The notes under the pieces: generated by a model
Database searches by the model: none
The model's input: only the letters and a program-made list of their open reading frames with translations
Told to the model about the DNA's origin: nothing
Position numbers and translations under genes: made by a program
In this document: positions 1,491 through 27,700 of the stretch, one piece after another
Layout of the letters: each line of letters opens with the position of its first letter
How positions within the stretch are numbered: the first letter of the stretch is position 1
NCBI RefSeq assembly: GCF_032854445.1
Contig: NC_088304.1
Coordinates: 32,168,810-32,232,809 of the forward strand
Direction: 5' to 3'
Length of the DNA stretch: 64,000 bases
Source of the DNA: Liolophura sinensis
Taxonomy: Eukaryota > Mollusca > Polyplacophora > Chitonida > Chitonidae

Positions 1491-4400
1491 CTGTACAAAA
1501 CATAAGACCACACACATATGTAATTTAGTTCTTAAAATACAAGTCGTCTGAGATATTGACATATGTTGGATTGACTTAATATATCTTTGGCTGAAAGTTA
1601 GTCTGTTGTACGGTTTAACTAGTGAATGAATGAATGCTTAAGGCTCCATATCACATAGAAACTAAAGTAGTTAATAGAGTTAACAGAAGATGATTACAGT
1701 GTAACATGCTCCGTTACTTTCTATTGAATTTCAGCAGAGAAAGTACTGCAGACGACAACCGGAGCAGATTTCATTTTGTAAAACACGAACACAATAGCTC
1801 AGGACGAGCTGAGAGTAGCTAAAACCAGTGGAAAACCAGAACACATAGAAGAGCCACTAGATCTGAACTTACCAATACTGTATTTACTTATGTACTGGTG
1901 TTTTGTGTTGTACTCAAGAATATCTCACTTTTACAATGGTGAACAGCATTGTGGAGCAGAGTCTGCAGGAAACCCACCCCGTCCGCAGCCACAGGCAGAC
2001 CTTCCCTTGAACGTTTAGATATTGGGTTGGGGAGGGTATACTCATGGTGTTTAACAAAAATGGCGGCGTTCGATATATGAGGAGTTCCGATCAAAAAGAA
2101 ACTGAGATATATATTTGCTTAACGACAATTTATGAACTGATTTCATTCATTCCGTGAAAACTGTTAACTGCTTCTCTTTGCATGAATCCATCCTAATTTC
2201 TTACTCTAATACTTAATTCTTACTTAATTCTTTGGCGGTCAGCATAGTTATTCAACACCTAGAACATTGCTTTCGTCTTTTTGTCATCACTGAAAGCACT
2301 GGTCTTCTTATCCATACGCCTTACAGCGCATGCGTCGCTCTCTACTTACGCTTTACATCAATGCCACCTATAGTAATTTTTGTACAAAAATCTTGAACAA
2401 CGCCAAGGTCAATGGGGTCACATGAGGCAGGAAGTTAAGAAAGAAGATAAGCAATCCATTTCACCCTTTGTTTCTAATAGTACTTTATAGATGTACACAT
2501 GCATTCTCTTTATCCAAAGTATGTAAAACATCGTTCTAACCAAAACCTGAAACAATTTTATTGATGAATCGTGATTAAATTGTTCCGCGCGAGTACACAA
2601 GGTCAAGTTTGTCCATTGGTGGCGGTGATGCAAAGCGAGCGCAGCGGCACATGTGTAAAAAGGAGTATGAATCCATCTTAATTTGTTATTTATCTTCGTT
2701 GTTAATTCTTTGTTAGTTTAGGCTGAACTTTGTTTTGGAAGTTGGTATAGTGATCATTGACCCGGAACGTGAGTTTTAGCTGTCAGACGATTTACAAATG
2801 CCTGTTTTGACGCGTAGATTATTTGTTGAATAAAATGTGAAAGAAAAAGTGCTTTGGTTCTGGACTCACCTCTTTTAACGAGCCTTTTTGTACAAAGACC
2901 AGGCGGTAGAACATGTAAGATGGGATACAGACGAGAGAGGACGCAGAAATCATCCAACCGAGCCCTACGGCCCAATCTGGGAACGGGTCGTCCTTCCCGT
3001 ACAGTGGTGGGTTGTAAGATATGAAGGATAGGACGAAAAGCAACTGGAAGAGAAATTAAGTATGTTGCAGTGTGGTGAGAACAGTTGATACCGTGTTGAT
3101 AACAGCTGATTCTGTGTTCAGGTATGTTGATACTGTGTTCAAAACAGTTGATACTGGGGTGAGAACAGTTGATATCGTGTTGAGGATAGCTAATACTGTG
3201 TTGATAACAGTTGATACCGTGTTGATGACAGTTGATACTGTGTTGATAACAGTTGATACTGGGGTGAGAACAGTTGATACTGGGATGAGAACAGTTGATA
3301 CCGTTGAGGACATTTGATACTGGGGTGAGAACAGCTGGTACTAGGATGAGGGTAGTTAATACTGTGCTCAGAACAGTTGATACTGTGCTGATAACAGTTG
3401 ATACTGGGGTGAGAATAGTTGATAATGGGATGAAAACAGTTGATACTGGGGTGAGAACAGTTTATACTGGGATGGAAACAGTTGATATTTGGGTCAGAAT
3501 AGTTTATATTCGGGTGATGACAGTGAATGCTGTGTACACAAATTGTACACATAAAAACGATGCCAAAATCACACGAAAGATAGGACGAAAAGCAACTGGA
3601 AGAGAAGTTGAGCATGCTGCATGTTTCATGCTGAACGTCAAGCGAGGTCTCAGGTGTGATTCGACCCAAGATTGACCCTGGATTGACCCTGGATGTACCG
3701 CTCCCAAGCGGACATGTGAATGGTTAAAAATGTTAGGCAATCTTTGTTAAACCTGATTCACTATTCACCTGTCTTGTCAGACGCACAAATGACACCCATT
3801 TCCTTTAGGAACGCCTAAAGTTCACCAACATTCAGATTGTCAGTCTTCTTTCATCCCTCCTCCCTAAATTGCTGCTTTTGACACTTTTTAAGACGCTCGT
3901 ATTATACCGAAAATGATTAAAAAATAGTAGCCTAACATTTTTGACAGGTCACATAATACAGCTGGACTTTTTCCCCCTTCAACAATAAAAGAGTTAGCAC
4001 TTCAAATTGCCCTATTATAACAGAAAATCTGTCGCCTGAGTAACGCTAGAATATAGCAGACAGAGAGTATTATTTTGATAATAAAATAATACTCGTTGTC
4101 ATGTTGAATATAATATCTTGCTGGCCTGATAAAATTTTATGTCGAATTAACAGAGCAGGGGGAGACCGAAGAGAGACCAGAGTACATGGCATCACATTTC
4201 GCTAAAACCTCCATACACAAGCCACGAAAGAAGTCATCTGGCCCATACTCTGGTGTCTGGTGTGCAGCTAATTATAAACGCCCAAAAAGTGATTGTGTAT
4301 GCAGCCATCTCTATCGATGGAGCCATCTCCGTGGAAAGGGATTGTAGATGCGCCCATCTCTATAGACTGAGCCATCTCTCTGGAAACTGATAGTGGATGC

Positions 4401-7400
4401 AGTCATTTCTGTCGGAAGGTATTGTGGATGCAGTCATTTCTGTCGGAAGGGATTGTGGATGCAGTCATTTCTGTCGGAAGGGATTGTGGATGTAGTCATT
4501 TCTGTCGGAAGGGATTGTGGATGCAGTCATTTCTGTCGGAAGGGATTGTGGATGCAGTCATTTCTGTCGGAAGGGATTGTGGATGTAGTCATTTCTGTCG
4601 GAAGGGATTGTGGATGCAGTCATTTCTGTCGGAAGGTATTGTGGATGCAATCATTTCTATTAAAAGGGATTGTGGATGCAGTTATTTCTATGAAATTTTT
4701 CTCTCGGTACACTCTGAGAAAATATTTCAACCTGCTTTAAACTAAATATATTTAATAGAAATGCAAATAATTTTACAGCAATACATTTGTTTTATTGAGG
4801 AACTTTAATTATTTGAAAATTCATGGCAAATTCGAAAAGTCTTAATTTTTAATGTGCTGTGGTTTACAGAATAATCTGTTGCTAGAACAGAAATATTCTA
4901 GCATTACTCAGACAAAGGACTTGACAAAATTTGAGGAAAGAAAGATACCACGGAGGCGCAAAAGGGACATGGCGGCTTTCTTTTCGTTTTTAACTGTGCG
5001 TTTTGGTTTATTTTTTCCACTTTTGCAGTCGGAGTTTTTCTTTTTTTAAGCAGCACTCCCCCCCCCCCCTCCCCGCTCCAAAAAAGAGACAAACTCCCAC
5101 AAAAAGAGATCGGGTGGGAGTTTTTCTTTTTTAAGCAGACGAAAGCAAAGGAAAAACTCCCACAAAAAGATCTTGGTCCCGGATATAAATAAGCCAATCG
5201 GATTACGTTTTGCTTTGCGCTTTTGTTGAAACACTTATGTATGTGATACTGTCATTGGACGATTATCTCGGGCCCCATCATAACTAAGTACCTAAGGTCT
5301 GTAATAAATACTGTATTCATGTACTTACTAAAATGAGAACTGGGCTGACGACAGTCCAGCAAACTTGCCAGAATATACCTGGTCGAAACCCCAACATGGC
5401 CTCCACGTCACCAGAAAAGCGTCTCACACCTTAAAAAAAAGAATTAAATACCAACCTAAGCGAAGAACTGTCGTAAGCTTCCTAGCGACGAAGTCTGCGC
5501 ATTTTGTCTTTCAAAATATGATTTTGTTCATAATTTACTTTTTCCCAGTAAAACTATTGTTGACACTATTGTCACTGCCATGCTTAATTCATCAAGCAAA
5601 TTTTTGATTGTCATGCCAATGATTTTTTGAACTGAATAGTTTTTTTCCAAAAAGGCTCCTAATATAGCACACCTCGAAATTAACCACAATTATAAAGATC
5701 ACAAAAGACAAAGCCCTGACAACACTTGAAAGACAAAGTAACAACAGCTGAAAGACAAAGTAACAACAGTTGACAGAAAAAGTAACTACTCGGCGAAGCC
5801 ATTTTATTAGTTAAATTCATAACAGTTAAATTCATAACAGCATGCCCAGGGCCCAGTTTATAATATGCTTACCGTAAATCCAAGAGACTGCTATTATCTC
5901 AAGAAAGACAACAAGTAGAATTGAGAAAGGAGCTGCATGGCTATCCAGTAACTCAACAACATACCGTCCTCCCTACAACAATACATAAATATGGCCAGTT
6001 GGATTATCCAGTAACACAAACACATACCGTCCTGCCTGCAATAAACAGGGTGCGATATGAATCATTTGGCTATTTGGCAACACAATGACATATCGCACTC
6101 CCAACAGTAGCACGCAAACTGTTATGAACTCACTGCCTCTCCGGTAACATACGAGGTGACATATCGCCCCAACTACAATAGCACGGATACGTTTATGAGT
6201 TATCGGGCTATCCCGCAACACAACAACATATCGCACTTACTGCAGCAGTACGGATACTGCTATGAGCTGTTTGGCTATCCGGCAACACAACATATCGCCC
6301 TAACAAAAACAGTACGGATACTGCTATGATCTGTTTGTCTATCCGGCAATAAAATGGCATGTCGCCCTAACTACTGTAGTGCGGATACTGTTACAAGCTG
6401 TTTGGCTATCCACAAACACAACAAGATATTGCCCTCACTGCTGTAGTGCGGATACTTTTATGAGCTAATTGGTTACCCAACAACACAATGACATATCGCT
6501 TTAACTACAATAATACGGATACTGTTATGAACTATTCGGCTATCCGACAACACAACAACATATCACCCTAACAAAAACAGTACGGATACTGTTATGAGCC
6601 ATTTGGCTGTCGGCCAACACAACAAAATATCGTCCTAACTGCAGTAGTACCGTTACGAGCTATTTGGTTTTTCGGCAACACAACAACATATCGCCCTAAC
6701 TGCAGTAGTACCGTTACGAGCTTTTTGGTTTTTCGGCAACACAGCAACATATCGCCCTAACAAAATCAGTACGGTTACTGTTATGAGCTATGTGGCTATT
6801 CGGCAACACAACAACATGTCCTAACAATAACAGTACGGATACTGTTATGGGCTGTTTGGCTATTCGGCAACATAACGACATATAGCCGTAACTGCAGTGG
6901 TACGGATATCGTTATGAGCTTTGCGACTATACATTAACAGTATACTATATCGCCCTCCCTATAGTAAAACATAGACATGAGACATTTGACTATTTCAGTA
7001 ACAGAATAAAGAATCACCCTCCATACAATTCATCAGAGAAGGAAGCAACACGGCTATCCAGTGACAAAATCCTACATTATTTTATTTTATTCAGTGGAAG
7101 AAAAAATGGTGTATTCTGAGTTAGTCACACATATGACAGAAACCGTTAATAACGGATTGCTTTTCTAGAAAAACTACACCAAAGTTGAAAAAAAAGTATA
7201 AATATTTTTAAAAACATTATGTATAAAAATGTATCAAAACAAAATAATTTTAAAGAAGTATTGACAAATAAACATTTTAAGACTGTATCTTGAACTCGCT
7301 CGTTCTTCATTTTTGTCTAAAATGTTAGTCACAACTAGGTGTTTACCTTGTGATGACTGTTTTACTTGCGAATTATTGTGACTTGGAGTATTACTTTTAT

Positions 7401-8661
7401 CTTATACATGATAGTGTTCAAGTACTTAGAATAATCATTTATACTTAACGCCAAGCGTGGAAGTGGGCCCACAGGTTACGTAATCAATCGGAATTCCAGC
7501 AACCGGGTCTTAGAACTGAAGAGTGAAGGAGCAGTGATTGGATAATACTGCCACACAGACATTTAAGGTTGTTGATACACTATACATTTCTGCACTGATG
7601 TTTTGCACCTAGTCAAAATATATCAGAATTTTGTCTGTTATGCGTAGAACTGTAAACTTGTGACCAGTGTTACTACCGACCACCCTGGAGGTTACCAAGG
7701 CAACAAAATGCTATTTCGCTTCCAGCAACCACAGCTAAAGAAATGGTAGTCATGCTAGGTTGCTTTTTTTTTTTTTTTGATGTTGTAGGAAAAAATGCAA
7801 GCTGCAGGTGGTTGTATGACATGCACCACGGGAAAGATAGAGGATATATGCTTTTGAAATTTGAAGTTGACAAATTTACTACATAAATAGTAACGATTAC
7901 TGATACGCTCGTGAAGCCTGCAGGGATGATCTCATTCTCCGCTAAGTGGTACTTACGTATGTGGTGGTGGAGAGTCCTCCCAGGAAGCAGTAGATGATCA
8001 GGACAAGCACAAAGAGTTCTCTCCTCTTTCTGAGCGCCGGCCACTCGTCAAGGACTCCCGTGATCACAGACTCGAGACCGCCAAACTGCCAAGCAAGCAA
8101 GACATTCTCATAAACAGTCATGCATGATTTATTTATTTATTTATTTATTTATTTGACTTTTGATTAACGCCATACTTAAAAATTTGTCACTTATACGACG
8201 GCAGTTTTATGAGCGGAGGAAGCCGGGCTGCTCTGCCTTTATCAAGATAGTGACGAAAAATAATGACCTAGGAATATGCATGTGACGTGAATGGATACCT
8301 GACAACTGACAATGACTCTTCATACCAAAATAATGACCTAGGAATAAACCATTAACAAAATACACCTGATCTGACAAATAAAACCTTTTAATATTATGTA
8401 CTCTATACAGATCTCATGTCCCAGATATACATTGTAATGAATGTGGTGAAGTGGGGGGATTTGGCCAAAGTGAGAACTGCGTTTTTGGAAAATATACCAA
8501 CGTGGGCCCGCGTTTTTCCTTAAATGTGACAAAGAAAACTGCTGGCAAAGAAACACACTTTTATGTATGTATGTATGTATGTATGTATGTATGTATGTAT
8601 GTATGAGTGTGTGTATGTATGTATGTATGTATGTATGTATGTATGTATGTATGTATGTATG

Positions 8662-8692
<31 letters not shown>

Positions 8693-11600
8693 TGAATCCA
8701 GACTTATCGTGGTATCTTCCTTGTCACAAAGTGAGATAATCAATCCAGACTTACCGTGGTATCTTCCTTGTCACAAAGTGAGATAATGAATTCAGACTTA
8801 CCGTGGTATCTTCCTTGTCACGAAGTGAGATGATGAATTCAGACTTACCGTGGTATCTTCCTTGTCACGAAGTGAGATGATGAATCCAGACTTACCGTGG
8901 TATCTTCCTTGTCACAAAGTGAGATAATGAATCCAGACTTACCGTGGTATCTTCCTTGTCACGAAGTGAGATGATAAATCCAGACTTACCGTGGTATCTT
9001 CCTTGTCACAAAGTGAGATGATGAACCCAGACTTACCGTGGTATCTTCCTTGTCACAAAGTGAGATAATGAATCCAGACTTACCGTGGTATCTTCCTTGT
9101 CACAAAGTGAGATAATGAATCCAGACTTACTGTATTATCTTCCTTGTCACAAAGTGAGATAATGAATCCAGACTTACTGTGGTATCTTCCTTGTCACAAA
9201 GTGAGATAATGAATCCAGACTTACTGTGGTATCTTCCTTGTCACAAAGTGAGATAATGAATCCAGACTTACCGTGGTATCTTCCTTGTCACAAAGTGAGA
9301 TAATGAATCCAGACTTACTGTATTATCTTCCTTGTCACAAAGTGAGATAATGAATCCAGACTTACTGTGGTATCCAGTCCTAGCGTTATTAACATGATGA
9401 AGAATATGATCGCCCAAAACACAGAACCGTCCAGCGTGGAAATGGCTTCTGGGTAGGCGACGAAAATCAGTCCGGGGCCTTCAAGTATACAAAGGTACTA
9501 TTAAACAAAAAGTTTCGTTCTAAGGAAAATAAATAAAGATGTGCTCAAAAAATGAGAATTTTTTTCATTATGTTTCTTCACAACCATCCCGTCTTCGTCT
9601 GTGGTCAGAAATATTCGGAAATGGTGTCATGGATGAAGTAATCGTCACGCCCTCAACNNNNNNNNNNNNNNNNNNNNNNNNNNNNNNNNNNNNNNNNNNN
9701 NNNNNNNNNNNNNNNNNNNNNNNNNNNNNNNNNNNNNNNNNNNNNNNNNNNNNNNNNNNNNNNNNNNNNNNNNNNNNNNNNNNNNNNNNNNNNNNNNNNN
9801 NNNNNNNNNNNNNNNNNNNNNNNNNNNNNNNNNNNNNNNNNNNNNNNNNNNNNNNNNGCAATAAACAGAGTGTGATATGAACCATTTGGCTATTTGGCAA
9901 CACAATGACATATCGCACTCCCAACAGTAGCACGAAAACTGTTATGAACTCACTGTCTATCCGGTAACATATGGGTGACATATCGCCCCAACTACAATAG
10001 TACGGATACGTTTATGAGCTATCTGGCTATCCCGCAAACACAACAACATATCGCACTTACTGCAGCAGTACGGATAGTGCTATGAGCTGTTTGGCTATCC
10101 GGCAAAACAACATATCGCCCTAACAAAAACAGTACGGATACTGCTATGATCTGTTTGTCTATCCGGCAACAAAATGGCATATCGCCCTAACTACTGTAGT
10201 GCGGATACTGTTACAAGCTATTTGGCTATCCACAAACACAACAAGATATTGCCCTCACTGCTGTAGTGCGGATACTTTTATGAGCTAATCGCTATCCAAC
10301 AACACAATGACATATCGCTTTAACTACAATAATACGGATACTGTTATGAACTATTCGGCTATCCGACAACACAACAACATATCACCCTAACAAAAACAGT
10401 ACGGATACTGTTATGAGCCATTTGGCTGTCGGGCAACACAACAAAATATCGTCCTAACTGCAGTAGTACCGTTACGAGCTATTTGGTTTTTCGGCAACAC
10501 AACAACATATCGCCCTAACAAAATCAGTACGGTTACTGTTATGAGCTATGTGGCTATTCGGTAACACAACAACATGTCCTAACAATAACAGTACGGATAC
10601 TGTTATGGGCTGTTTGGCTATTCGGCAACATAACGACATATAGCCGTAACTGCAGTGGTACGGATATGGTTATGAGCTTTGCGGCTATACATTAACAGTA
10701 TACTATATCGCCCTCCCTATAGTAAAACATAGACATGAGACATTTGGACTATTTCAGTAACAGAATAAAGAATCACCCTCCATACAATTCATCACAGAAG
10801 GAAGCAACACGGCTATCCAGTGACAAAATCCTACATTATTTTATTTTATTCAGTGGAAGAAAAAATGGTGTATTCTGAGTTAGTCACACATATGACAGAA
10901 ACCGTTAATAACGGATTGCTTTTCTAGAAAAACTACACCAAAGTTGAAAAAAAGTATAAATATTTTTAAAACATTTATGTATAAAAATGTATCAAAACAA
11001 AATAATTTTAAAGAAGTAGTGACAAATAACATTTTAAGACTGTGTCTTGAACTCGCTCGTTCTTCATTTTTGTCTAAAATGTTAGTCACAACTAGGTGTT
11101 TACCTTGTGATGACTGTTTTACTTGCGAATTAATTGTGACTTGGAGTATTACTTTTATCTTATACATGACAGTGTACAAAGTACTTAGAACAATTTATAC
11201 TTAACACCAAGCGTGGAAGTGGGCCCACAGGTTACATAATCAATCGGAATTCCAGCAACTGGGTCTTAGAACTGAAGAGTGAAGGAGCAGTGATTGGATA
11301 ATACTGCCGCACAGACATTTAAGGTTGTTGATACACTATACATTTCTGCGCTGATGTTTTGCACTTAGTTAAAATATATCAGAATTTTGTCTGCTATGCA
11401 TGGACTGTAAACTTGTGACCAGTGTTACTACCGACCACCCTGGAGGTTACCAAGGCAACAAAATGCTATTCGCTTCCAGCAACCACAGCTAAAGAAATGG
11501 TAGTCATGCTAGGTTGCTTTTTTTTTTTTGATGTTGTAGGAAAAAATGCAAGCTGCAGGTGGTTGTATGACATGCACCACGGGAAAGATAGAGGATATAT

Positions 11601-12672
11601 ACTTTTGAAATTTGAAGTTGACAAATTTACTACATAAATAGTAACGATTACTGATACGCTCGTGAAGCCTGCAGCGATGAGCTCATTCTCCGCTAAGTGG
11701 TACTTACGTATGTGGTGGTGGAGAGTCCCCCAGGAAGCAGTAGATGATCAGGACAAGCACAAAGAGTTCTCTCCTCTTTCTGAGCGCCGGCCACTCGTCA
11801 AGGACTCCCGTGATCACAGACTCGAGACCGCCAAACTGCCAAGCAAGCAAGACATTCTCATAAACAGTCATGCATGATTTATTTATTTATTTATTTATTC
11901 ATTTATTTATTTATTTATTTATTTATTTATTTGACGTTTGTTTAACGCCATACTTAAAAATTTGTCACTTATACGACGGCAGTTTTATGAGCGGACGAAG
12001 CCGGGCTGCTCTGCCTTTATCAAGATAGTGACGAAAAATAATGACCTAGGAATATGCATGTGACGTGAATGATACCTTTGGTGGAAAACTGACAACGACT
12101 CTTCATACCAAAATAATGACCTAGGAATAAACCATTAACAAAATACACCTGATCTGACAAATAAAACCTTTTAATATTATGTACTCTATACAGATCTCAT
12201 GTCCCAGATATACATTGTAATGAATGTGGTGAAGTGGGGGGATTTGGGCCAAAGTGAGAACTGCGTTTTTGGAAAATATACCAACGTGGGCCCGCGTTTT
12301 TCCTTAAATGTGACAAAGAAAACTGCTGGCAAAGAAACACACTTTTATGTATGTATGTATGTATGTATGTATGTATGTATGTATGTGAGTGAGTGAGGGA
12401 AAGTTTTAACGTCGCTTTCAACAATATTTCAGTTTTATTGCGACAATAAAACGTCAAGTAGTCGATCTACTACGGATAATTCATTTACTATTCAGTCAAA
12501 AAAGGACACCAGAAGTCACGTAACAAACACAGACGGTAGTTTAAAATCACAGCTTTCCTGCCATACCAATGGTAGAGAGAAAAACAAAAATAGTATCACT
12601 TTCTACAGAATTGAAAAGTTCTGAAAGAGAGCTCACGTGATAAAAGGAATATCGTAAAGGAGCAAAGGTATG

Positions 12673-12703
<31 letters not shown>

Positions 12704-15700
12704 TGAATCCAGACTTACCGTGGTATCTTCCTTGTCACAAAGTGAGATAATGAATCCAGACTTACCGCGGTATCTTCCTTGTCACAAAGTGAGATAATGA
12801 ATCCAGACTTACCGTGGTATCTTCCTTGTCACAAAGTGAGATAATGAATCCAGACTTACCGTGGTATCTTCCTTGTCACAAAGTGAGATAATGAATCCAG
12901 ACTTACCGTGGTATCTTCCTTGTCACAAAGTGAGATAATGAATCCAGACTTACTGTGGTATCTTCCTTGTCACGAAGTGAGATGATGAATCCAGACTTAC
13001 TGTGGTATCTTCCTTGTCACAAAGTGAGATAATCAATCCAGACTTACCGTGGTATCTTCCTTGTCACAAAGTGAGATAATGAATCCAGACTTACCGTGGT
13101 ATCTTCCTTGTCACAAAGTGAGATAATCAATCCAGACTTACTGTGGTATCTTCCTTGTCACAAAGTGAGATAATCAATCCAGACTTACCGTGGTATCTTC
13201 CTTGTCACAAAGTGAGATAATGAATCCAGACTTACCGTGGTATCTTCCTTGTCACAAAGTGAGATAATCAATCCAGACTTACCGTGGTATCTTCCTTGTC
13301 ACAAAGTGAGATAATGAATCCAGACTTACCGTGGTATCTTCCTTGTCACAAAGTGAGATAATGAATCCAGACTTACCGTGGTATCTTCCTTGTCACAAAG
13401 TGAGATAATCAATCCAGACTTACTGTGGTATCTTCCTTGTCACGAAGTGAGATAATGAATCCAGACTTACCGTGGTATCTTCCTTGTCACAAAGTGAAAT
13501 AATCAATCCAGACTTACTGTGGTATCCAGTCCTAGCGTTATTAACATGATGAAGAATATGATCGCCCAAAACACAGAACCGTCCAGGGTGGAAATGGCTT
13601 CTGGGTAAGCGACGAAAATCAGTCCGGGGCCTTCAAGTATACAAAGGTACTATTAAACAAAAAGTTTCGTTCTAAGGAAAATAAATAAAGATGTGCTCAA
13701 AAAATGAGAATTTTTTTCATTATGTTTCTTCACAACCATCCCGTCTTCGTCTGTGGTCAGAAATATTCGGAAATGGTGTCATTGATGAAAATAATCGTCA
13801 CGCCCTCAACTGATCTATTTTAAGAGTATTTCTAAATAATTTTTTTATAATCGAGAAATGATACACTAAACACACTTTAAACACAAATACTTCAACACAG
13901 CCATGCTCGGTTCATTGCACCCTGAGCTCTTCAATCTGTGGAGGTAATGTTGTGTCGTCTTCAAAAGATTTCCGTATTCACCTCTCTTTCCGTGCCTGTC
14001 GACAGATGTTATCTACAGGAGGGCGCTGTGTAAGTTTTGTGCATATCCAAATCAGTGACGTAACAGGAGTCTGCTATCGCCTTGGCCAAAGGACCACAGA
14101 CCACGGTTCATCATATGGTTACCTCCAGAGAGGTACAGCTTTTGTTTATTTTGCTAATAATAAGAATTAATAAAGATTAATAATAAAGATTGCAAAACAA
14201 AAATAAATAAAACTTGGTTTTATTATGAACTATAGGTAATTGGAATACAGTCCAATGTTACTGATCTGAGAACCCTTGTTTTCATGAATTGCTATTCATG
14301 CAACTTCATTAAACTAACAACTGCAACAAATAGTTGTCACGGTGAGTGGTCTACGCTAATGGCCAGCATTATCCAAAAAGAGCCGTGTGATCGTATAAAG
14401 CCGTACACTCTAACTGTTGTTCTTTTCTGTAATATGTCACTGTGTCCAGATAGTTGTGCTCTTAAAGCAAAAATGTAGTTCACAAGCACTGTGGTGTAAC
14501 ACTGTGTCTTTTTTGGGAACTGGCCTTGCCTTTATTGACGTGGAACGTCCTTATTTGTTGACGGGTGGTATACGAATGCCTGTTTTTATTTAGAGAGATC
14601 ACTTATATTGTTTCACATCGTTCTAATAAATAATTTTCACCCACTTACCTTGTCCAGCTACCTCGTCTATGGGAGTGTGATGAACATTTGACATAAACCC
14701 GAGCACACTGAACACCGCGAATCCCGCGAAAAAACTCGTGAAGCAGTTGATGCCAGATGTAATGATGGCGTCTCTGAAAACAGAGTTCATATTAGCCTTT
14801 CACAGCTTTATGCGACCTAATGCCTGTCACGTCTGTTACAAGACTATGACATTTTTAACGAAAGACATTTTCACAGCGTCCATGTTTTTTCACATTTCTT
14901 GTGTACCGGTACATGTAAAATTGCTGCCGAAAGATAATATACACCTGCGTAGGTTGTTCATTTGTTTCTATTTAGATCTTTATATATAATCTTTACTGTC
15001 TGTGGCTGTACGTGGGAAAATCTGGCACGCCTTTCTCCGGGCTGTACCCGGTTTCCTCACATCATATAATGCTGGCCGTCGTCGTATCAGTGAAATATTT
15101 TTGAGTACGGCGTAAAACACCAATGAAATAAATAAATAAATAAATACTGTCGGTAGCAGATTTTATTTGTTGCTCAAAGCGTTCCAGCCTTTGTACTTAA
15201 AACTATTTCATGTATACAACGAAGGTGAAGGTCAAATATATACGCCCTGCATATCATAGTGGAATTTACTGAGTGAGTGTGTGCGTGCTTGTGTGCGTGC
15301 GCGCTTGCGTGCGTACGTGCGTGAGTTAGTGTGTCAGTCGGTCAGTTAGTCATTGATTAATTGATTGGTTAGTTGTTTGATTGTATACTTAACGCCATAC
15401 AGAAGAATTTTTCACTTATTTGATTGGGTGGAGAAAACCGGAGTATCAAGGATAAACCACAGAACTTTGGCATGCCCCTGACGAACTTTCTCACGTGTGA
15501 AACCTAGTGACTTTCAACGAAAAGAAGAATGCCCGTCGAGCGCCTATGCTGGAGTTTTATAGGGGAAAGAAACTAGGTAGACTTACCTGTAACAGTTGTT
15601 GTTAAATTTGTTGTAGCTGGACAGAGCCAGCAACACTCCAAACCCGGGACCCAGCGAGAAGAACACCTGGGCTGCAGCGTCCACCCATACCTGCAGATTG

Positions 15701-18700
15701 ATTTATTCAGTCAGGTATATTCTTCTAGCAATATATTAATGGTTGGCTAGATAAAAGTTTGATCGACTGACTGACTGATTGATCGATTGATTGATTTCTG
15801 TTTCACGCCATACTCACGTATTTTTCACTTCTGCGGTGAGAGTCAATTTTAAGGTTGGAGGAAACGGGAGTAACCGAGGTACACCAACATTTGACATGTT
15901 TCTCACGAAATGTCTCACATGTGAGGCGTTCAGTCTTCCACACCATATCGGTGGACGAAACATTGTTTTCAGGGAAAGTAAAAAAAGTCACAGTGAGAGC
16001 GGTGAAATCTATATACAAATTCCTTCTCCCTATTCGCCCGGTTAAACCCGCGCATCGTATCATCCACCAGACAAAAATGTAATCTACATTTGGTGAGTGA
16101 GTGAGTGCTTAGGGTTTAACATCGTACTTAACAATTTTTCAGTCATATAACGTTGAAGGAGTCCGTAGAGTGCATATATGTGTAATGTGTCTCCTCGTTG
16201 CAGAACGGATATCTAACACTTTTTTACGTAGTACTACTTCATTGAGACGACTTGCTGGAGATAAGTAAGCCGACCCACTCGAGCTGTTATGCCCATACGG
16301 GTCAACCAGTATTACGCTATACCCTTAATACTGAACGGTAAAGTTTTATCCGACCCAGGATTGACCCTGGATGTACAGCCCTCGAAGAGGATGCTCTACC
16401 AACTGAGCGGGGCGCTACATTTTACATCACTACATTTGGTGGTTTAACTGTTAAAGGTCAATGTTGTACGAAATATCATCCATGAGTCAACTACACGGAC
16501 GTAAATTCTCTCTGTAATATCAGGGAAGCAGAATCAGCATCAAAAAAACACGAACTGGCTGGACTGGCTTAGCGGAAAAGACAGGCGTTTTTGCTTATAT
16601 TACGACAGCGAAGGAGGAGGAAACCTGAGTGCCATCATGCATCTGACAAAACCTCCTGATTTAAAGTCTCACCCGCAAAAAAACAAAATGGGAGAGCTGG
16701 ATTTGTACACAAGACCTTTATGACCTAGGGCATGATGGCTGGGACGCTAGCGCTTCAAACATCTGAGCTAAGCAGACCGACATGTTGCCGATGAATAAAA
16801 GTGAATGCGCATATTTGTGGAAGTCTGTACATTCACAGGAGACACACTGTAGCAGCCTCAGGGGTGAGTTGGAACAATTCACTACGAAAAGGCACTACTC
16901 TAGGAAAGGTAAATATAAGGCTGCAAGAAGGTACTTTAGTGACTTCAAAACAATACAGACGTGAAGGTTCCGTCATGTAGAACCATAGTGAACCCTTCAA
17001 CTTACTGAAGTCATTTCTGAACTTACAGTTGGCTTTAGCTATATGTGATCCCAACCAAAATGATTATTATCATTATCCGACCAATCAGTACGTGAAAAAT
17101 TAAAAGCATTTTGTTGATGAACCAGATCTGAATCAAGTCACTGATTAGGCCTGAGTATTGTGTATACAGTGTGGCTGAATGTGACTGTGTATGATCTGCC
17201 GGATCCAGGCTTTGTGTCAGGGTAAATGTTTTACCGCTACTTCGGCACCACGTGACTTCTTTCTGAGCAAACAATTAACACGTGTTGTATGCATGTACAA
17301 GGCATCAGTAGCAAATTTTTCGTAATATTAGTGGCGTTATTCAGATATTTAATTTTATTTATTTATTTATTTGATTGTTGTTTTACGCCGTACTCAAGAA
17401 TATTTCACTTATGCAACGGCGGCCAGCATTATGATGGGAGGAAACCCGGCACAGCCCAGAGCAAACCCACGGCCATCCGCAGGTTGGTGCCAGACCTTCC
17501 CACTTACGGCCGTTAATTTTTAAAATGCTATTTGAATTATTCAGACTTCAAACGTAACACAGAACTTCAGTCTCAAGAATGGAAAATACAATCGACTGCA
17601 GATAGAAACATAAATTTTAACTCGGTATGTCAGATTTTTGGAGTGAAAATTATTTTTTCATCCTTTAAGATGAAATAAATTGCATAATTACTAAATTAAT
17701 CCGATGTTTACCGTGTTCCCACGTAAGCCTACATATATGTACATGAAAGAATGTCAGTGTAGCTTTCACTGTTTTATTTTTAAAAATATTTTCCTGAGAA
17801 AAAAACGGTTAATATTGGTCAACATGACAAGTATATTAAAAACTTAAAGTTTAATATTGAATACACATATATAAATTATATTTAGGATATCTCCCTGTAT
17901 GAATTATTAAGAAAACAGCAGTGATTGATTGGAAATTTACCATTTTACGCTGTTTTTGTTAAAGACATTTACATCCCCATGGTAATAACATGAAAGAAAC
18001 ACTGTATTATTTAGTTGTCATACTTTTATTTGGGACAATTTAAATAGTTTTTAAAGCATGGTGTTCGACGGGAAGACTGATAATACGGAATGAGGTTCAA
18101 ATTTTTCCCCATGAAATCTGCTTTATTGAATGGATATAAAATATCTCGTTCCCTTCAAATTCATTATCTGTTATCTTAATGAAGTTTTAAATTTTCTCGT
18201 AAAATTCACAATTGGCCTGCCATGTTGGATATAAATAGTCCCCATATGTAAAAGTGATTGTTACTGGGTTACACCTTATGACGGCGACCAATTAGCATTG
18301 ATGATAATGGCATTGACGATGAGAATGGCATTGACGATGAAAATGGCATTGACGATGAAAATGGCATTGACGATGAGAATGGCATTGACGATGAGAATGG
18401 CATTGACGATGAGAAAGGCACTTTTCAAAGCTAATCGTATAATCATAAGGTTTTACTTTACTCTGTCATTCCCTATGTTATAATTTTATGTACAGATGCG
18501 TAATGTAATGCACTGCAATAGGAAAATATTGCTTGGGTAAATTAATCTACTTGTACCTAAATCTTTACAAGTTAACAGTTTATCCAACCGTAAATTGATC
18601 TACATTTTCTCAATCCTTGCCAGTTAACACCTCCCCTTTCACGCAAAGTACATTGACCTGGCGTTCTGATACCATCTCTTATTAACGCTAATAAGATGGG

Positions 18701-21700
18701 AAACTATTCACGGAATGGTGCCAATTAGCCCCACTGCACGATCTCAGGAGAAAGAAATGCAATATTAAAAGCGATGACGGGGAAAGACTAGGTTTCATAA
18801 GAACAAATAAGCTGATAACTGTTAATTAACTCATTCATCGCTGTTAGTGAGATTAAGTTTTGAATGAATGATTTAACGCCATTTCCGAAATATCTCGGCC
18901 ACATCGTGGCTAATCTAGTTTAGAAAAATTGTTTAAGTCCTGTTAAATCAAGAGTTAACATCGGTATGAACGCTGCTTGAGTATGACACTAAACAAGTAC
19001 CAAATAAATAAATGTTGGTAGTGGTATAGTTTTTTTTGTCTCAGCATGTATTGACTGAAGCAGAAGCCGATTTCATGAAGCGCACTTAGCTAAGTAAGCC
19101 CGTATGTTGTAGAGATATAAAGTGCACTTAGCTAAGGGCAACTTAACACCAAGTAAGCTTCATGAAACCGGTCCCAGTTTTTGATATATTAATGTATATT
19201 ACATAACACACTTCACAGGAACTTAAAGTAAAGTAAAAATGTTCTCTGTAACATCATCGACGGGCAAGAACATAAATATGGCGCAAAATCCCGCCTCAGA
19301 CTCGAATACATACATGCCTTTAAAATACATTCTGAATATATTTTCAGAACTAGTTTTCAATGTTAAGCTTGATAATGACAACTTGTTTCTGCTGTCTTTT
19401 CTTTTAAGGGATCCGATCAGTTCATTCTTACGAAATCCTTTACAAGAAAGCATTTCGTACAATGAAGTGAAGATCAGAAAAAAGACCGTTGAATGTTCTT
19501 GTAGGTAAACTGTGTTTCTCTCTATTTTATATATGAAGTGCAATATGTATGCTCAATCTTGGCTACCGTTAAAACTGCATCTGAAAATGCTACTTAATAT
19601 ATCTTTACATGTTTTCACCGACTCAGATGCAGAGTTAGGATTGTACGGTGGGCTTTATGGACCATAACCATTTTGATAATGGATGTCGTGAATGACGTCA
19701 CAAATCTTTTAGGACATTTTTATCTTCGAGTCTGAAAAACATTCTGACGTCACACAGCTTTCTGGAAACCCATATCTTTGGATCTGAAGAGCATTCTGTC
19801 GTCACACGGATTTTGGACGTCCTTAACTTCGGGTGTGAAAAACATTCTGACGTCACACAGCTTTTTGGACACCTTTATCTTCGGCCCTGAAAACATTCTG
19901 ACGTCACACAGCTGTTTGGACACATCTATCTTCGGGTCTGAAAACATTCAGTCACACAACTTTTTGAACGCTCTTATCTTCCGGTTTAAAAAACATTCTG
20001 GCGCTCTTTAAAGATACTATGTGTGCTTGTGCATGAAAAAGCAAATGGGACATTAAATACTTATTTCATGAACGGCGAGAAGTTGGAGCGATGTCACTGG
20101 TGACATACAATACAAATTTGATTCATAAATTTCGCCTTACAAAAAAAAAACATTATTTTATGTAATGGCCTGTCTAATGTATTTTTCCTATCACCATAAT
20201 GCTGGTCGCCGTCGTATAAGTGAAATATTCTTGAGTACCACGAAAACACTTATCAAATACATGTAAATAAACAAATAAATCTCTAAAGTTTCTTGTTTTC
20301 TTTTTAAGTCTTTTTTCACTGTTTTACACGTATTTTCAGGGCTATAACTGCATTATTTTTCTTTAGAATCTAAGAGAATCTTTACATAACATACTGTTTA
20401 AAGGTATCACAAAGTATACTGACGCTGTTTTATAGTCAAGCGATAGAAAATATAGTACCTCCAACTTTTATGCGTGTAAAAGAATATGCTACCATGAATA
20501 TTGTATGCGCACAGCTGCAGCAATCATTACTAAGTATTAGCAGTACATTCAATACTACCAAAGCAATGCTTACTTCAATACCAGGTCCATTCTTACAGTA
20601 TCAACAGAGTGACGTCCCTGGGCCCTTGGCCTTCTTGTTCTTGTCGTGGCACAAGTTGACTGCAACTACCATGGCAACATATTCCTTAACATATTTGTTT
20701 GGCCACGGTAGCTACGATCGACAGCCCACGATCGTTTTCTGCGTTACAGTAGTTGCAGTTTACATTATTATAGATGTACTGTAAGTATTGCTTTGCAGAA
20801 CATGTATATTTACAACAACATGAGTCCTTATGGCAATATCAGAGTATAAAACCGAGCAATGAAGTCACGTGATTCGAGACTTGACGTCCCTGGGCTCTTG
20901 ACGTCAAAGCTGATGTTTGGCTAGATTTGTATTAAATTTGGATTATGTCTGAGATTTTTTGAGATCACAAAAGCACTTGATATTATTATAACAGTACTTG
21001 ATAGTATTATCGCAGCAGTACTTGATAGTATTATCACAGCAGTACTTGATAGTATTATAACAGTACTTGACAGTATAATCGCAGCAATATTGATAGTATT
21101 ATCACAGCAGTACCTGACTATTATCACAGCAGTACTAAATAGTATTATTGCAGCAATACTTGATAGTATTATCTCAGCAGTACTGGATTGAATTATGATG
21201 GTATCATTTGATAGCATTATCACAGAAGTACTTGACAGTATTACCACAGCAGTACTTGATTGTATTATCATAACAGTACTTAATAGTATTATCGCAGCAG
21301 TACTTGACTGAATTATGACAGCATCATCTGATGGTATTATCACAGAAGTTCTGGATAGTATTAAAACAAAAGTACATGATAGTATTATCGCAGCAGTACT
21401 TGATCGCCGCATTATAAGTACTATACTTAATAAACTAAGCATAACAGCAATACATATTATCGTAGTGGAAATCTTGAAAATACCACCACCTCTAATGTCA
21501 CTAAAAACTTTTTGTATTGTCATAGCTATGTATTACTACAGGAGAGCTTTCATCGTTACTTCTAGGCACTACTACCTAAGCTTACTACCTTGGCTGTAGT
21601 GTTGTCATAGCTGTATTACTACAGGAGAACTTTAAGCGTTAGGGCCTTAGCTATAGTGTTGTCATAGCTGTATTACTACAGGAGAACTTTCAGCGTTACT

Positions 21701-24700
21701 GCCTTAGCTATAGTGTTGCCATAGCTGTATTACTACAGAAGAACTTTCAGCGTTACTGCCTTAGCTATAGTGTTGTCATAGCTGTATTACTACAGAACTT
21801 TCAGCGTTACTGCCTTAGCTATAGTGTTGCCATAGCTGTATTACTACAGTAGAACTTTCAGTGTTACTACTAGGCACTACTACCTAAGCTTACTACCTTG
21901 GCTGTAGTGTTGTCATAGCTGTACAGGGGAACTTTCAGAGATACTACCTTGGCTGTAGTGTTGTCATAGCTGTATTACTACAGGGGAACTTTCAGAGTTA
22001 CTAACTTGGCTGTTGTGTTGTCATAGCTGTATTACTACAGGTGGTTTTTCAGAGTTACTACCTTGGCTGTGGTGTTGCCATAGCTGTATTACTACAGGGG
22101 AACTTTCAGCGTTGCCGCAGTCTATGGTGTTGTAATAGCTATGTATTACCACAGGAGAACTTTCAGCGTTACCGCATTAGCTGTAGTGTTGTCATAGTTA
22201 CAAGTATGTATTTTCAGCGTTACCACATTAGCTACAGTGTTGTCTTAGCTATGTATTACCACAACAGAACTTTCAGCGTTGCCGCATAGGCTGTAGTGTG
22301 GTCATAGCTATGTATTACCAGGAGAACTTTCAGCGTTACCACATTAGCTGCAGTGTTGTCCTAGCTATGTATTACCACAACAGAACTTTCAGCGTTGCAG
22401 CATAGGCTGTAGTGTGGTCATAGCTATGTATCACTACAGGAGAACTTTCAGTGTTACTGCATGTTCTTTCAACCCTTTGTTCTCCATATGTGCACTTGTT
22501 CTTCACGAGCTGGAAACTTTCCTGCCAAAAAATTTACCCCAGGCATCCGTCCACTCACAAAATTGCCATCGTGTAGGTGAAGCAATCTCAAGTACGACAT
22601 TGAACAACAATGAAACCAATCAGTCCATATTATTCCAACGCAAAACCAAAGTATTATTATAGAAATACTCAACATATTATATTAGCACTTGCAGTATTAC
22701 CGTAGAAGTGTTTATAGTATCACAGCAGAAATTACAGTAGCTGTACTTACGCGAGGATTTTTAAGTTGCTCCCACTGAGGCGTGAGGTAGTACACTATCC
22801 CATCATGTGACCCCGGTAAGGTGCAGCCTCTTATCATGAGAACGGTCAACACCAAATATGGCAATGTTGCAGTGACCCAGACGGCCTGAAACAGACAGTG
22901 TCATCACGTGATCGTATCCAAGACGAGGCTTATACCCCCCAAATTGATTGGGTGAATGTCCAACCTAGCTTGTGTAACGGGCAAACTGAAACGTAACTCT
23001 GTGTTATTTCACGAAACAGACTTTCGAAATTTGTATTTTTATTCCTTTATTTCGAATGTGGACGAATTTTACTGCACGTCTTTGAGACTCCAACTCCGAC
23101 TCCTGTTTCTTATCTTTGCTTGACCGCTTCCTGAACAATTGGGCTTGAAACATCTTTAAAGATCCTTAGTTGAAGTTGATTAATTTTTCCAGAAGTGTTG
23201 GCCTACTGCAACTCTCACACTCTGGACCAATGTGGCAGCCTGTTCGGATCCAGCTCCTGCTGCTACAACTACGCCTTAAAGTTTTGAGGTTTGTGAGGTA
23301 CCTGGCGAAAGTAGCCGGTTAACTCCACCGATAATCCTGATCGCCATCGCATAAGTGAAACATTTTGAGAACAGCGTTAAATGCCAAATAAATCAATAGA
23401 ATTTCAGAATATACTTTTAAAGTAAAAGAAGGCTAAAATACTAAGTAAGGTCCATCAAACAGACAACTGAAAAGTATGTGTCAAAATACTTTCATTTATT
23501 TTTTTTAGATTTTTTTGAAGAGTGTTGAAAGGCATTGAAATATTTGAATACTATGATAGGCTTTATGAGACTTTTATCCTAATTATCAGCAGAAGGAAGG
23601 AATTTTTGAAAACATTATTTTAATACTATTTTACCCATGGGTAAAAAAAGTTATTCCAACATTCAATGTCGGGACTGGAGTTGGAAAAGATTCGTGTGAC
23701 GTCAGAAGTCCTAAACTCTGATAATATGGTTCATAAAACCCACCTTAGAATTCAGATGTTTGGACGCCTTTAACTCTTTTCACTAACAGTCTGCTCTGAC
23801 GGATGGAATGTCCCTTACCTTTCCTGAGCTTTTGACGCCCTTCCAGAGAGCGAAGTAGACGAGCACGAAGACTCCTGCCAGACACAGAGCTATTGACCAT
23901 TTTATTCCTCCCACATCAGACAAACCATCTGCTCTAAACGACTCCAACACCTGACGACTGAAAAGAAAACAATGACACTAAACAATGAAGGCATTTGTCA
24001 TGTTTGATTGATATGAAATGTAGAACCGGCGGTGACTGGATTCCGATGTTCAGTGTAGAATGATAGTAGTGCTTGCTTCCAGTACATTTTCTACTGAAGA
24101 TCATTGACCTAACCCCTAGGTTTAAATAAAACCAAAGAAAAGGAACTTAATTTCGAAAGGACATCTCACTGAGTGACCTAAACACGCTGTGCAATACGAA
24201 ATTACTCTTCTCCGCTTGTACTTGATGTGGCAGATTCGTGAACAGCAGTCTGCAAATCTCGCTCTGAACAGTGATTTCACCTTCAAACAAGGGGTTTACC
24301 CGACTGTCTACATTGATACCATTAGTCTAACATACCAGCCTTCAGAAGGCTGTATGGGAAGTGAGTTCAAAACCCTATAGGTGCACGATCATCCCAAAAT
24401 GGTCTAGTAGCTGAAAACATGCTCAGTTCCTGTGTGCAGACCTGGGATCCGTTTCACGAAGCGCACGCAGCGCACCAAGAGAATGTAATATTTATTTATT
24501 GATTTATTGATTTATTGATTTATTTATTTATTTATTTATTTATTTATTTGGTGTTTTACGCCGTGGTAAAGAATATCTCACCTATGCGAAGGCGTCCAGC
24601 ATTATGGTGGGAGAAAACCGGCGGGCAGATCCCGGGAGAAACCCAGGGCAATCCGCAGGTTGCTGCAAGGTCTTCCTACGTACGGCCTGAACTGAACTTG

Positions 24701-27700
24701 AACTGACAGCGACTGGCGACGTAATGCCTACAGTGCTGGTTGCCATGGAAGTTGCGTGCTCGCAAAACTGCGCGCGTTTTGTGAAACAAGACACTGAATC
24801 AATCTTACTTTTCTACTTAAAGTACACGATACACACCTGTAGAATTCCTCGGATGAGGCCACAGAGTAGTTAGTGTGAAGTGAGGTGTTTTTCCGGTCTT
24901 CAAACGACGTGCAGTTGTCTGTGTTCCAATCATTGTCACAGCTTATCCATGGCACTTTTAAGCGCATGGAGGAGAAAAAATAGTAGAGTGCCCAGGCAAT
25001 GATGGTGTTGTAATAGAAGGCCACGTACGACGCCATAACGACGATTGCGTAGCCCGCGCCTGCAAAGAAAGAAAGAATACTGTAATATGAATACTGTATT
25101 ATTTATGTGACCGATATTTCACGCAGTAATTAATAAGTTTTTAGTTGTACGATGGCTGTCAGGTTTCTAGTTGGAGAAAACCAAAGTACCAAAGTCAGGT
25201 TTTCTAGTTGAAAACCAAAGTACCGACAAAAAACCACAACACGTCGACAGGTAGCTTACAAACTTAAAACTCAATTGCAATGCTTTTTAAATTTTCTTTG
25301 CAAAGGTATTTCATTAAGTATTTGTTATATGGTTGTTAATACGTTATTGGTTTTCTTAGAGTGTTCTATTATTGTGTGCACCTGTATGCAATGTGTAACT
25401 TAGTTTTGACCAGAAATAAACCGTACAAGTCTCTGCACAGTTTACCTTTGTTTCAATGTTACTGTAATAATACCATTAATTGCTCTAATAAATTGCAATT
25501 AACACTGCATTTTTTTTACCTAATTCTGCTTAAGCCATGGTGCTGGGGTGTAATTTGGTACAATTTAAGCATTTACATGAACAGGTAGAATAAAGCCCTG
25601 ACTGAGGTAAAAGAGGTTTCACCGGTTACGTGTAACCATTTAATTTCCTACGCTGCGCGTCTTTAATTATACGTGTACTGTATTCCTGTATTAACCAGGA
25701 ACCTGCTGGTGGACTGAGCACCCCCGAGGCCTGGTTCCTTTGCATTGATTTTAAAGTTACTGTATGTTAAATGTCATGGCAACACAGCATTTTTAGTAAT
25801 TTAGATCAGTTACGTCTAATGAATTGTAATTAACATCACTATTTTTTTTTCGGGTTTACCTAATTCTGCTTAAGTCATGGTGCTTAGGAACGTGTAATTT
25901 ACTTCTGTTTAAGCATTTACACCAGCAGTACATGAACAGCTGGAATAAATCCCTCTCTTTTGTGCTCTGGTTTAACCTTCTATGCTGCACGTCTTTAATT
26001 ACTTTGTAGTCTGTTAAAAAATCCATGACTTGTTCTCCTTGGATTTTGGAACGTCGCTACATCAAAGACGATCTGATTCATTGATGTTGCTCCAGTTGTA
26101 TTAAGCTAATAAAGCGTATTAGCTAATACCGGTATTAAGTTTATACTGGTATTAAGTCATACTTTATATTTAAATTTTTAGCCAAACGCTGCAGCCAATG
26201 CAGATCCCCAAAGGCAAACCATAACGGCAGCAGTATTTGTTCATAATTAATATAATGTTAGACAATTTTTCTAAGACTAAGTGCAAAATTGAAGACTTGG
26301 TGAAACGTTACACTCTTAAAACTGAAGTGGTTCATGTAAAGATCACGAGGAGTGATTGCACTTGTAAGAGCTATATGACTATATTTATTATTACTTTTCC
26401 TAACTGTTAATATTTCAATACGCTTGATCTCTAATAACAGTGTTTGAGAACTGGTTAATCAACATCTGAAACCAACACTTTAAGCAGAGTTGGGGCCTCC
26501 GTGCCTCAGTTGCTGAGCGCGCTACCGCAGCGTAATGACCCAGGGGCCTTTCACCAATGCGGTCGCTGTGAGTTCAAGTCCGGCTCATGCTGGCTTCTCC
26601 GGCCATACGTGGGAAGGTCTGCCAGCAGGCTGCGGATGGTCGTGGGTTTCCCCAGGGCTATGCCCGGTTTCCACCCACCATAATGCTGGCCGCCGTCGTA
26701 TAAGTGAAATATCCTTGTGTGCGGCGTATAACACCAATCAAATAAATAAATAAATAAACCAAACAGAGTTAAATATTTAACACTGTTAGAGGAACCGGAA
26801 TATTTGAACACCTTTAAAGAGTATTTAAAAATCAACACTTCATAAAAGTGGTCATATAGCTCTTATAAGTGCAATCTTTGTGATTTTCATGATCTATACA
26901 GTGTTAAAGATGACAATGTAGTTTTAACAGTGTACATGTAAGTAAGATTTTTGTCACTCATACGATCGTAGCCAGTTTTAAGAGTGTATGAGGAACCTTT
27001 CCCGCCTATAGTGGTTCGGCCCCAAGCAGTGTTGTCTATTGGTCATCGTTTTCTAGACAAACTGGTAACGTAATACTCGTTTATTGAAACTGACCACTAA
27101 AGTAGTCAATTTAGCTTGAGCCCAAGCCGTCATTGCGCGGGAAATTGTACATCATTGCGTTAAACACTACTCAAATACGGCCCGATTCTGAGTTGAACCG
27201 GAGCCTTGCCGCCAGCAAAAGTGACGCCCTGTACCCCTGGCCACCACAATCTGTCAACAACGTTAGAGCGTTCTGTGATTTACAACGTTTTCTTCACTGA
27301 TCATTTCATCAATAGTGCTAAAGGATTTTTCAGTACAATCCCGTTTTTCTTGCGATTTGTCGGATCGTTAAGTCTGGCGGTGTCACGACGCGTCCACACG
27401 GAAGCTGGCTGTAATGAGCTGAGAACAATCTGTAACGCAATGGATTGGTAGACTAGTTATTCCAAGACAGGCCATTTGTAATTACTAAGTTAACCAAACG
27501 CCGTCTGTGTCACAAGTCGAAAATCACAAGAGAATTCGCTTTAATCGAGACACGGTACATTCCCCACGTTGAAGTACCGGCGGCTTTTGGTGCGTCGAAA
27601 TGTGTGGTAAGAAAGATATCGACCCTCAACATGCTCGTGATGAAAATATCAGGCTTCCCATGACAAAAACCATTAATTAATTGAAGTTTGAATTGAGATC

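Follow-up and report, generated by a model that had tools for sequence, protein, structure and literature searches.

How does a gene keep working when the splice donor of one of its coding exons has been multiplied into a long row of near-identical copies? This question is raised by a stretch of 64,000 nucleotides from the chiton Liolophura sinensis (assembly GCF_032854445.1, contig NC_088304.1, positions 32,168,810 to 32,232,809; hereafter the window), in which a minisatellite straddles the end of exon 8 of a gene for a serotonin transporter (SERT)-like protein of the SLC6 family. Repeats of this kind are called mirages, a name coined for the exon-intron boundary repeats of amphioxus Adh3. 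The chiton array is probably a passive and tolerated mirage. It would have arisen from a segment across the exon-8 end, through slippage during replication or through unequal exchange, and its two assembled copies would be alleles of 15 and 18 units which change faster than their flanks. The exon-proximal donor would mostly be used, exon definition being biased towards the usual exon of 113 nt, while leakage to later donors would yield transcripts with early stops, presumably degraded. Selection would then mainly keep this first donor working.

The exon-8 donor array and its gene

The exons were located by tblastn with the human SERT sequence, and exon 8 is counted from the first exon found, so that human exon numbering may differ. 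Joined at their splice sites, 12 exons of the minus strand encode 539 residues without a stop; a start codon and the last coding exon were not found in this model. Compared as a whole with the PDB, it ranks human SERT chains first (721 bits), followed by the noradrenaline (670) and dopamine (669) transporters, and the gene is, judged by this predicted protein, a serotonin-transporter-like SLC6 gene. Exons 7-9 alone count against the label by placing the noradrenaline transporter first (146 vs 134 bits for SERT), and for this reason the assignment rests on the whole protein.

Seen on the minus strand, every 47-bp unit joins 9 nt from the end of exon 8 to 38 nt of intron, in register, the common form being GATACCAC, then A or G, and past the splice junction GTAAGTCTGGATTCATTATCTCACTTTGTGACAAGGAA. 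Exon 8 ends with GAT ACC ACA/GTAAGT and exon 9 starts with TTTGGC. The final nine nucleotides of exon 8, GATACCACA (Asp-Thr-Thr), lie inside the array, and the three repeated codons align with residues 437-439 of human SERT. Tandem Repeats Finder (TRF) describes the first array with period 47, 14.6 copies, 95% matches and a score of 1216, and the second with period 47, 17.6 copies, 96% matches and a score of 1540. Counted unit by unit, the GT is kept in 32 of the 33 donors (GTAAGT); donor 15 of the first array, reading GATAAGT, has lost it. In a scan of 1632 pairs of exon edges and arrays, the exon-8 donor scored 98, whereas none of 400 shuffles exceeded 23, and a 20-base donor pattern had 26 matches in the 609-Mb assembly, every one within the window. 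The copied codons vary among units, with Asp-Asn-Thr in units 2 and 6 of the first array and Asp-Thr-Ala in unit 17 of the second. Taken together, the 31 full units fall into 14 types, of which three are common to both arrays and cover 18 of the units.

An earlier note on this DNA, made without database searches, had anticipated much of this structure. The SERT-like gene, the unit built of exon end plus donor and the presence of a second assembled copy were all borne out, as was the true donor as first in the row, the exon end being backed by the stop-free 12-exon model. Its count of about 15 donors suits the first copy, whereas the second has 18 and not about 17. The array does sit at the exon end as the note had placed it, but the limits given there (8692-9365, adjoining the exon) have to be extended to 8690-9374 because the array reaches 9 nt into exon 8.

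Table 1. Features of the window (positions within the 64,000 nucleotides) and boundary arrays at other loci of the genome. Alleles A and B denote the first and second assembled copy, most likely haplotypes.
Feature	Position	Strand	Remarks
SERT-like SLC6 gene	2870..41317	-	12 coding exons found, E1 41317-41179 to E12 3043-2870; 5' edge of E1 is a guess
Exon 8 (113 nt), allele A	9366..9478	-	last 9 nt (9366-9374) in array; donor ACA/GTAAGT at 9366/9365
Exon 8, allele B	13518..13630	-	two synonymous differences from allele A
Exon 9 (129 nt), allele A	7957..8085	-	acceptor TTGGCAG/TTTGGC
Exon 9, allele B	11708..11835	-	one base shorter near end (frameshift)
Exon 10	5873..5972	-	source of acceptor array
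Exon-8 donor minisatellite, allele A	8690..9374	-	47-bp unit, 15 units (last partial), 14 intact GT donors
Exon-8 donor minisatellite, allele B	12701..13526	-	47-bp unit, 18 units (last partial), all donors intact
Exon-10 acceptor array, allele A	5991..6930	-	acceptor and up to ~43 nt of exon 10; degenerate ~67-bp units
Exon-10 acceptor array, allele B	9858..10700	-	
200-N scaffold gap	9658..9857	.	meeting point of two overlapping contig ends
L019, L030			SLC6 donor boundary arrays, by reading
L017			SLC6 acceptor boundary array, by reading
L052, L058			ABC donor boundary arrays, by reading
L057	C11:2417423-2420617		ABC donor; 16-17 tandem 91-bp copies of last coding stretch and donor; TRF 94% matches
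L073	C10:16.0 Mb		paralogue; exon-5 acceptor array, two clear copies and a weaker third

The array belongs to a known class, that of the mirages, with a human repeat in ABCA7 (see below) as a close analogue; what is new is its recurrence in a mollusc. Eight haemocyanin beta-sandwich domains (PF14830), typical of molluscs, stand in tandem in the assembly, and a lancelet origin of the window was rejected partly in view of them. Excerpts of the lancelet literature report boundary repeats in Adh3, the globins BflGb6 and BflGb9, TnC and PGBD5, with 6 vs 3 units on two haplotypes of BflGb6 and splice signals in many units (PMC3087553, PMC3902484). Somatic length instability has been described for the Adh3 mirage. 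Like these, the chiton repeat spans an exon-intron boundary and its units copy the splice signal. The two assembled copies, of 15 and 18 units, would represent a length difference between haplotypes if they are alleles. Unlike the lancelet repeats, the array lies in a SERT-like gene of a mollusc and features 15 and 18 units with all donors but one intact, while its splicing is a prediction from sequence. In human segmental duplications, boundary internal tandem repeats likewise sit at exon-intron boundaries, where they can give rise to alternative splicing or to additional introns; they differ from the chiton arrays in concerning human paralogues and in lying to one half within coding exons (PMC2812944). 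In the open-licence literature searched, no description of a molluscan mirage was found, and the matches for a chiton minisatellite all concern Theileria by title; a search there for a SINE-like tail was empty. A variable number tandem repeat (VNTR) in an intron of a SERT gene is familiar from human SLC6A4, the intron-2 repeat STin2, whose 17-bp unit lies away from splice sites and is discussed as a transcriptional enhancer; the chiton array, in contrast, is situated at a splice site. Exon-edge minisatellites have been named from few lancelet genes and are here found repeatedly in a mollusc, probably with two ages in one gene. As public DNA and RNA data are available for the species, among them the HiFi reads SRX20411988 and five RNA-seq samples of BioProject PRJNA973839, the locus offers a system to measure the choice of the spliceosome among 15 near-identical donors, which could further show how frequently genes are damaged by arrays of this type and whether introns are born from them.

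Frame consequences and the choice among donors

The possible products were translated donor by donor. Use of donor 2 of allele A shifts the frame, and a stop follows in exon 9 after model residue 393. With donors 3-15 of the same allele the stop comes after residue 387 and with donors 2-18 of allele B after residue 375, in both cases inside the extension. Premature stops thus result from all intact decoys (13/13 in A, 17/17 in B), and since every additional donor ends in this way, only the exon-proximal one is productive. Extensions of 3, 6, 9 or 12 units (141, 282 nt etc.), although in frame, hold the same stop, which excludes a lengthened transporter. The earlier proposal that the exon might grow by multiples of 47 nt was correct in that a single extra unit breaks the frame, as seen for donor 2 of allele A, but with a stop read in every extension the lengthened exon is ruled out as a productive isoform. 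Exon 9, in turn, can be skipped in frame, which does not apply to exon 8.

Several results weigh against a harmless array. With ACA/GTAAGT, the authentic donor forms the weakest computed U1 duplex among the 12 donors of the gene (-5.6 vs -6.8 to -12.1 kcal/mol), while 22 of the 30 intact decoys carry a G at position -1, with a computed U1 pairing of -9.3, better than that of donor 1. Use of the first donor is consequently not assured. These strengths are model scores (U1 duplex energy and a simple frequency matrix), and in the matrix the authentic donor ranks fourth lowest of the 12. In addition, the human ABCA7 intron-18 VNTR demonstrates that a donor-bearing array can affect splicing. According to the excerpted account, the first GT of its 25-bp units is the exon-18 donor; retention of one unit, causing a frameshift and an early stop, amounts to 2 ± 1% independently of length, whereas skipping of exon 19 rises with array length, expression is lower, and the altered transcripts jointly outnumber the normal transcript in 90% of the cortex samples from BA10 (PMC5954066). 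The chiton array resembles this case in that its unit holds the donor of the exon and adjoins it, and in that retention of one unit breaks the frame. It differs in that the ABCA7 unit starts at the GT, with no exon bases stated in that account, and in that splicing of ABCA7 was measured, whereas the frame effects in the chiton are computed.

Because most decoys outscore donor 1 and the ABCA7 array strongly alters splicing, two functional roles have been retained beside a tolerated array. The first, which appears unlikely, is that the strong decoys draw U1 and divert a substantial, length-dependent share of the transcripts into a stop-bearing extended exon or into in-frame skipping of exon 9, by which array length would tune SERT output. 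The better U1 pairing of the decoys, the early stop of all decoy products, the possibility of skipping exon 9 in frame and the relation of ABCA7 array length to exon skipping and expression speak for such an effect. However, use of decoys would give exons of up to 912 nt, and overlong exons are disfavoured by exon definition. Moreover, the unit retention in ABCA7 is low and does not depend on length (PMC5954066), and for lancelet mirages the excerpts report regular splicing as undisturbed, without aberrant mRNA (PMC3087553, PMC3902484).

Boundary arrays elsewhere in the gene and the genome

The donor of exon 8 is not the only boundary of this gene that has been copied, as the start of intron 8 and the end of intron 9 each carry a boundary minisatellite. 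Among the 24 exon ends tested against the 67-bp array of intron 9, only the 5' end of exon 10 matches clearly: it scores 43 for one copy and 37 for the other, compared with at most 25 in shuffles and 24 for the runner-up among the exon ends. In the all-against-all scan of edges and arrays it scored 54 vs a shuffle maximum of 23. The uniformity of the exon-8 array suggests that it is probably young, and the decay of the exon-10 array that it is probably old. Local copies occur at three of the 24 edges, namely 14 of the exon-8 donor, five of the exon-10 acceptor and one of the exon-12 acceptor. The exon-12 acceptor was rejected as a mirage: it lies 28 nt from the array at 3071-3487 and outside it, the array itself accounts for the scores of 37 and 36, and there is the one local copy. 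The donors of exons 5 and 11, scoring 25 and 24 against other arrays and thus near the shuffle maximum of 23, were not accepted either. The array at 3071-3487 is a 21-bp minisatellite whose end, 28 nt upstream of the exon-12 acceptor, falls where a branch point would lie. For the whole window, 79 TRF rows were obtained (overlaps counted), many of which describe minisatellites with 20-70-bp units.

A survey of two hand-chosen gene families with a crude site caller comprised 30 of 109 SLC6 matches, of which 27 lie outside the window and some overlap, and 30 of 49 matches to ABC-membrane exons, each in loci of 3-4 kb. By reading, seven further boundary arrays were recognized at exon edges of SLC6 and ABC-transporter genes (Table 1), one of them in a paralogue fetched outside the sample. 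For L017 and L019 the automatic flags were decoys within the array, and the real boundary was fixed by reading. Three candidates were rejected as mirages: on reading, the acceptor flagged at L030 resembles an array of the intron next to the exon, the array of L070 lies near the donor and not across it, and L046 features a single copy. Of 117 unique SLC6 edges, automatic counting flagged four, three of which were upheld by reading, vs 31 of 439 positions chosen at random in noncoding DNA of the same loci (p=0.20); for ABC edges the figures were 3 of 52 vs 77 of 300 (p=0.001). Under a looser test, 4 of 149 SLC6 edges were flagged, together with 24 of 324 positions in noncoding DNA and 1 of 135 in the interior of exons. 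No enrichment at splice sites was thus found in the SLC6 or ABC samples, where edges are at or below background. As exon edges are not richer in repeats than random noncoding positions, passive seeding is favoured; the counts fit arrays which arise anywhere and are less tolerated at exon edges.

The interest of the locus is raised by this wider point, as many exon edges of a mollusc genome hold such arrays, as seen in the SLC6 and ABC samples. It is conceivable, but decidedly improbable, that the genome acts as a nursery where exon-edge minisatellites keep arising. The hypervariable SERT array would then set the loss to decoys for each allele and expose the last three codons of exon 8 to exchange with unit variants, and introns or exons could be seeded from arrays of this type. 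If this were true, splice sites would be copied in bulk across the exon edges of the chiton genome. Potential in-frame mini-exons of 12 nt between AAG and GTAAGT are present in 13 of the 14 downstream units of allele A and in all 17 of allele B.

The second functional role for the SERT array, with still less to recommend it, is that extra U1 sites downstream of a weak authentic donor help to define exon 8, so that a loss of units would reduce its inclusion. As known from work with exon-specific U1, inclusion of an exon with a weak donor can be restored by U1 bound further downstream, and stronger U1 sites do follow the weakest donor of this gene at 47-bp steps. Nevertheless, no donor array was found at the corresponding exon end of the paralogue at C10:16.0 Mb, and arrays are not enriched at exon edges. 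This monoamine-transporter-like paralogue shows two apparent frame breaks (L073:1032-1140 and 2789-2900) and may be a pseudogene or contain sequence errors.

Two assembled copies of the array

The array lengths of 15 vs 18 units gain their meaning from the relation of the two copies. A self-similar block covers 6038-9657 and 9858-13810, with the 200-N gap exactly between the end of the first and the start of the second part. Such a placement is expected if two overlapping contig ends of different haplotypes were scaffolded next to each other. Beyond the arrays, three flanking stretches show identities of 98.6, 98.9 and 97.8% when gaps are disregarded, and a heterozygosity of 1.24% is given in the excerpted report on the chiton Liolophura japonica (PMC11068029). 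Exons 7 and 10, on either side of the doubled region, are single-copy in the window. Most likely the two arrays are therefore two alleles standing side by side across the gap, a reading derived from the gap and the flank divergence. According to the same report, the assembly was built from HiFi reads with a mean of 8,347 bp at 14x using purge_dups and YaHS (PMC11068029); with this mean length, single reads should span the arrays of 0.7-0.8 kb. Two differences sit less well with alleles: about 280 bp of the second copy (12387-12667), between two TATG tracts, are missing from the first, and the side of the intron-9 array is only ~91% identical between the copies.

A genuine tandem duplication of exons 8-9 on one chromosome, to which these 280 bp and the persistence of copies in tandem despite the purging of haplotypic duplications (PMC11068029) might point, is most improbable, given that the homology stops exactly at both sides of the gap, that the flank divergence is close to the published heterozygosity and that the second exon 9 carries a frameshift. 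The base lacking in this second exon 9 (11708-11835) may reflect a null allele or an error.
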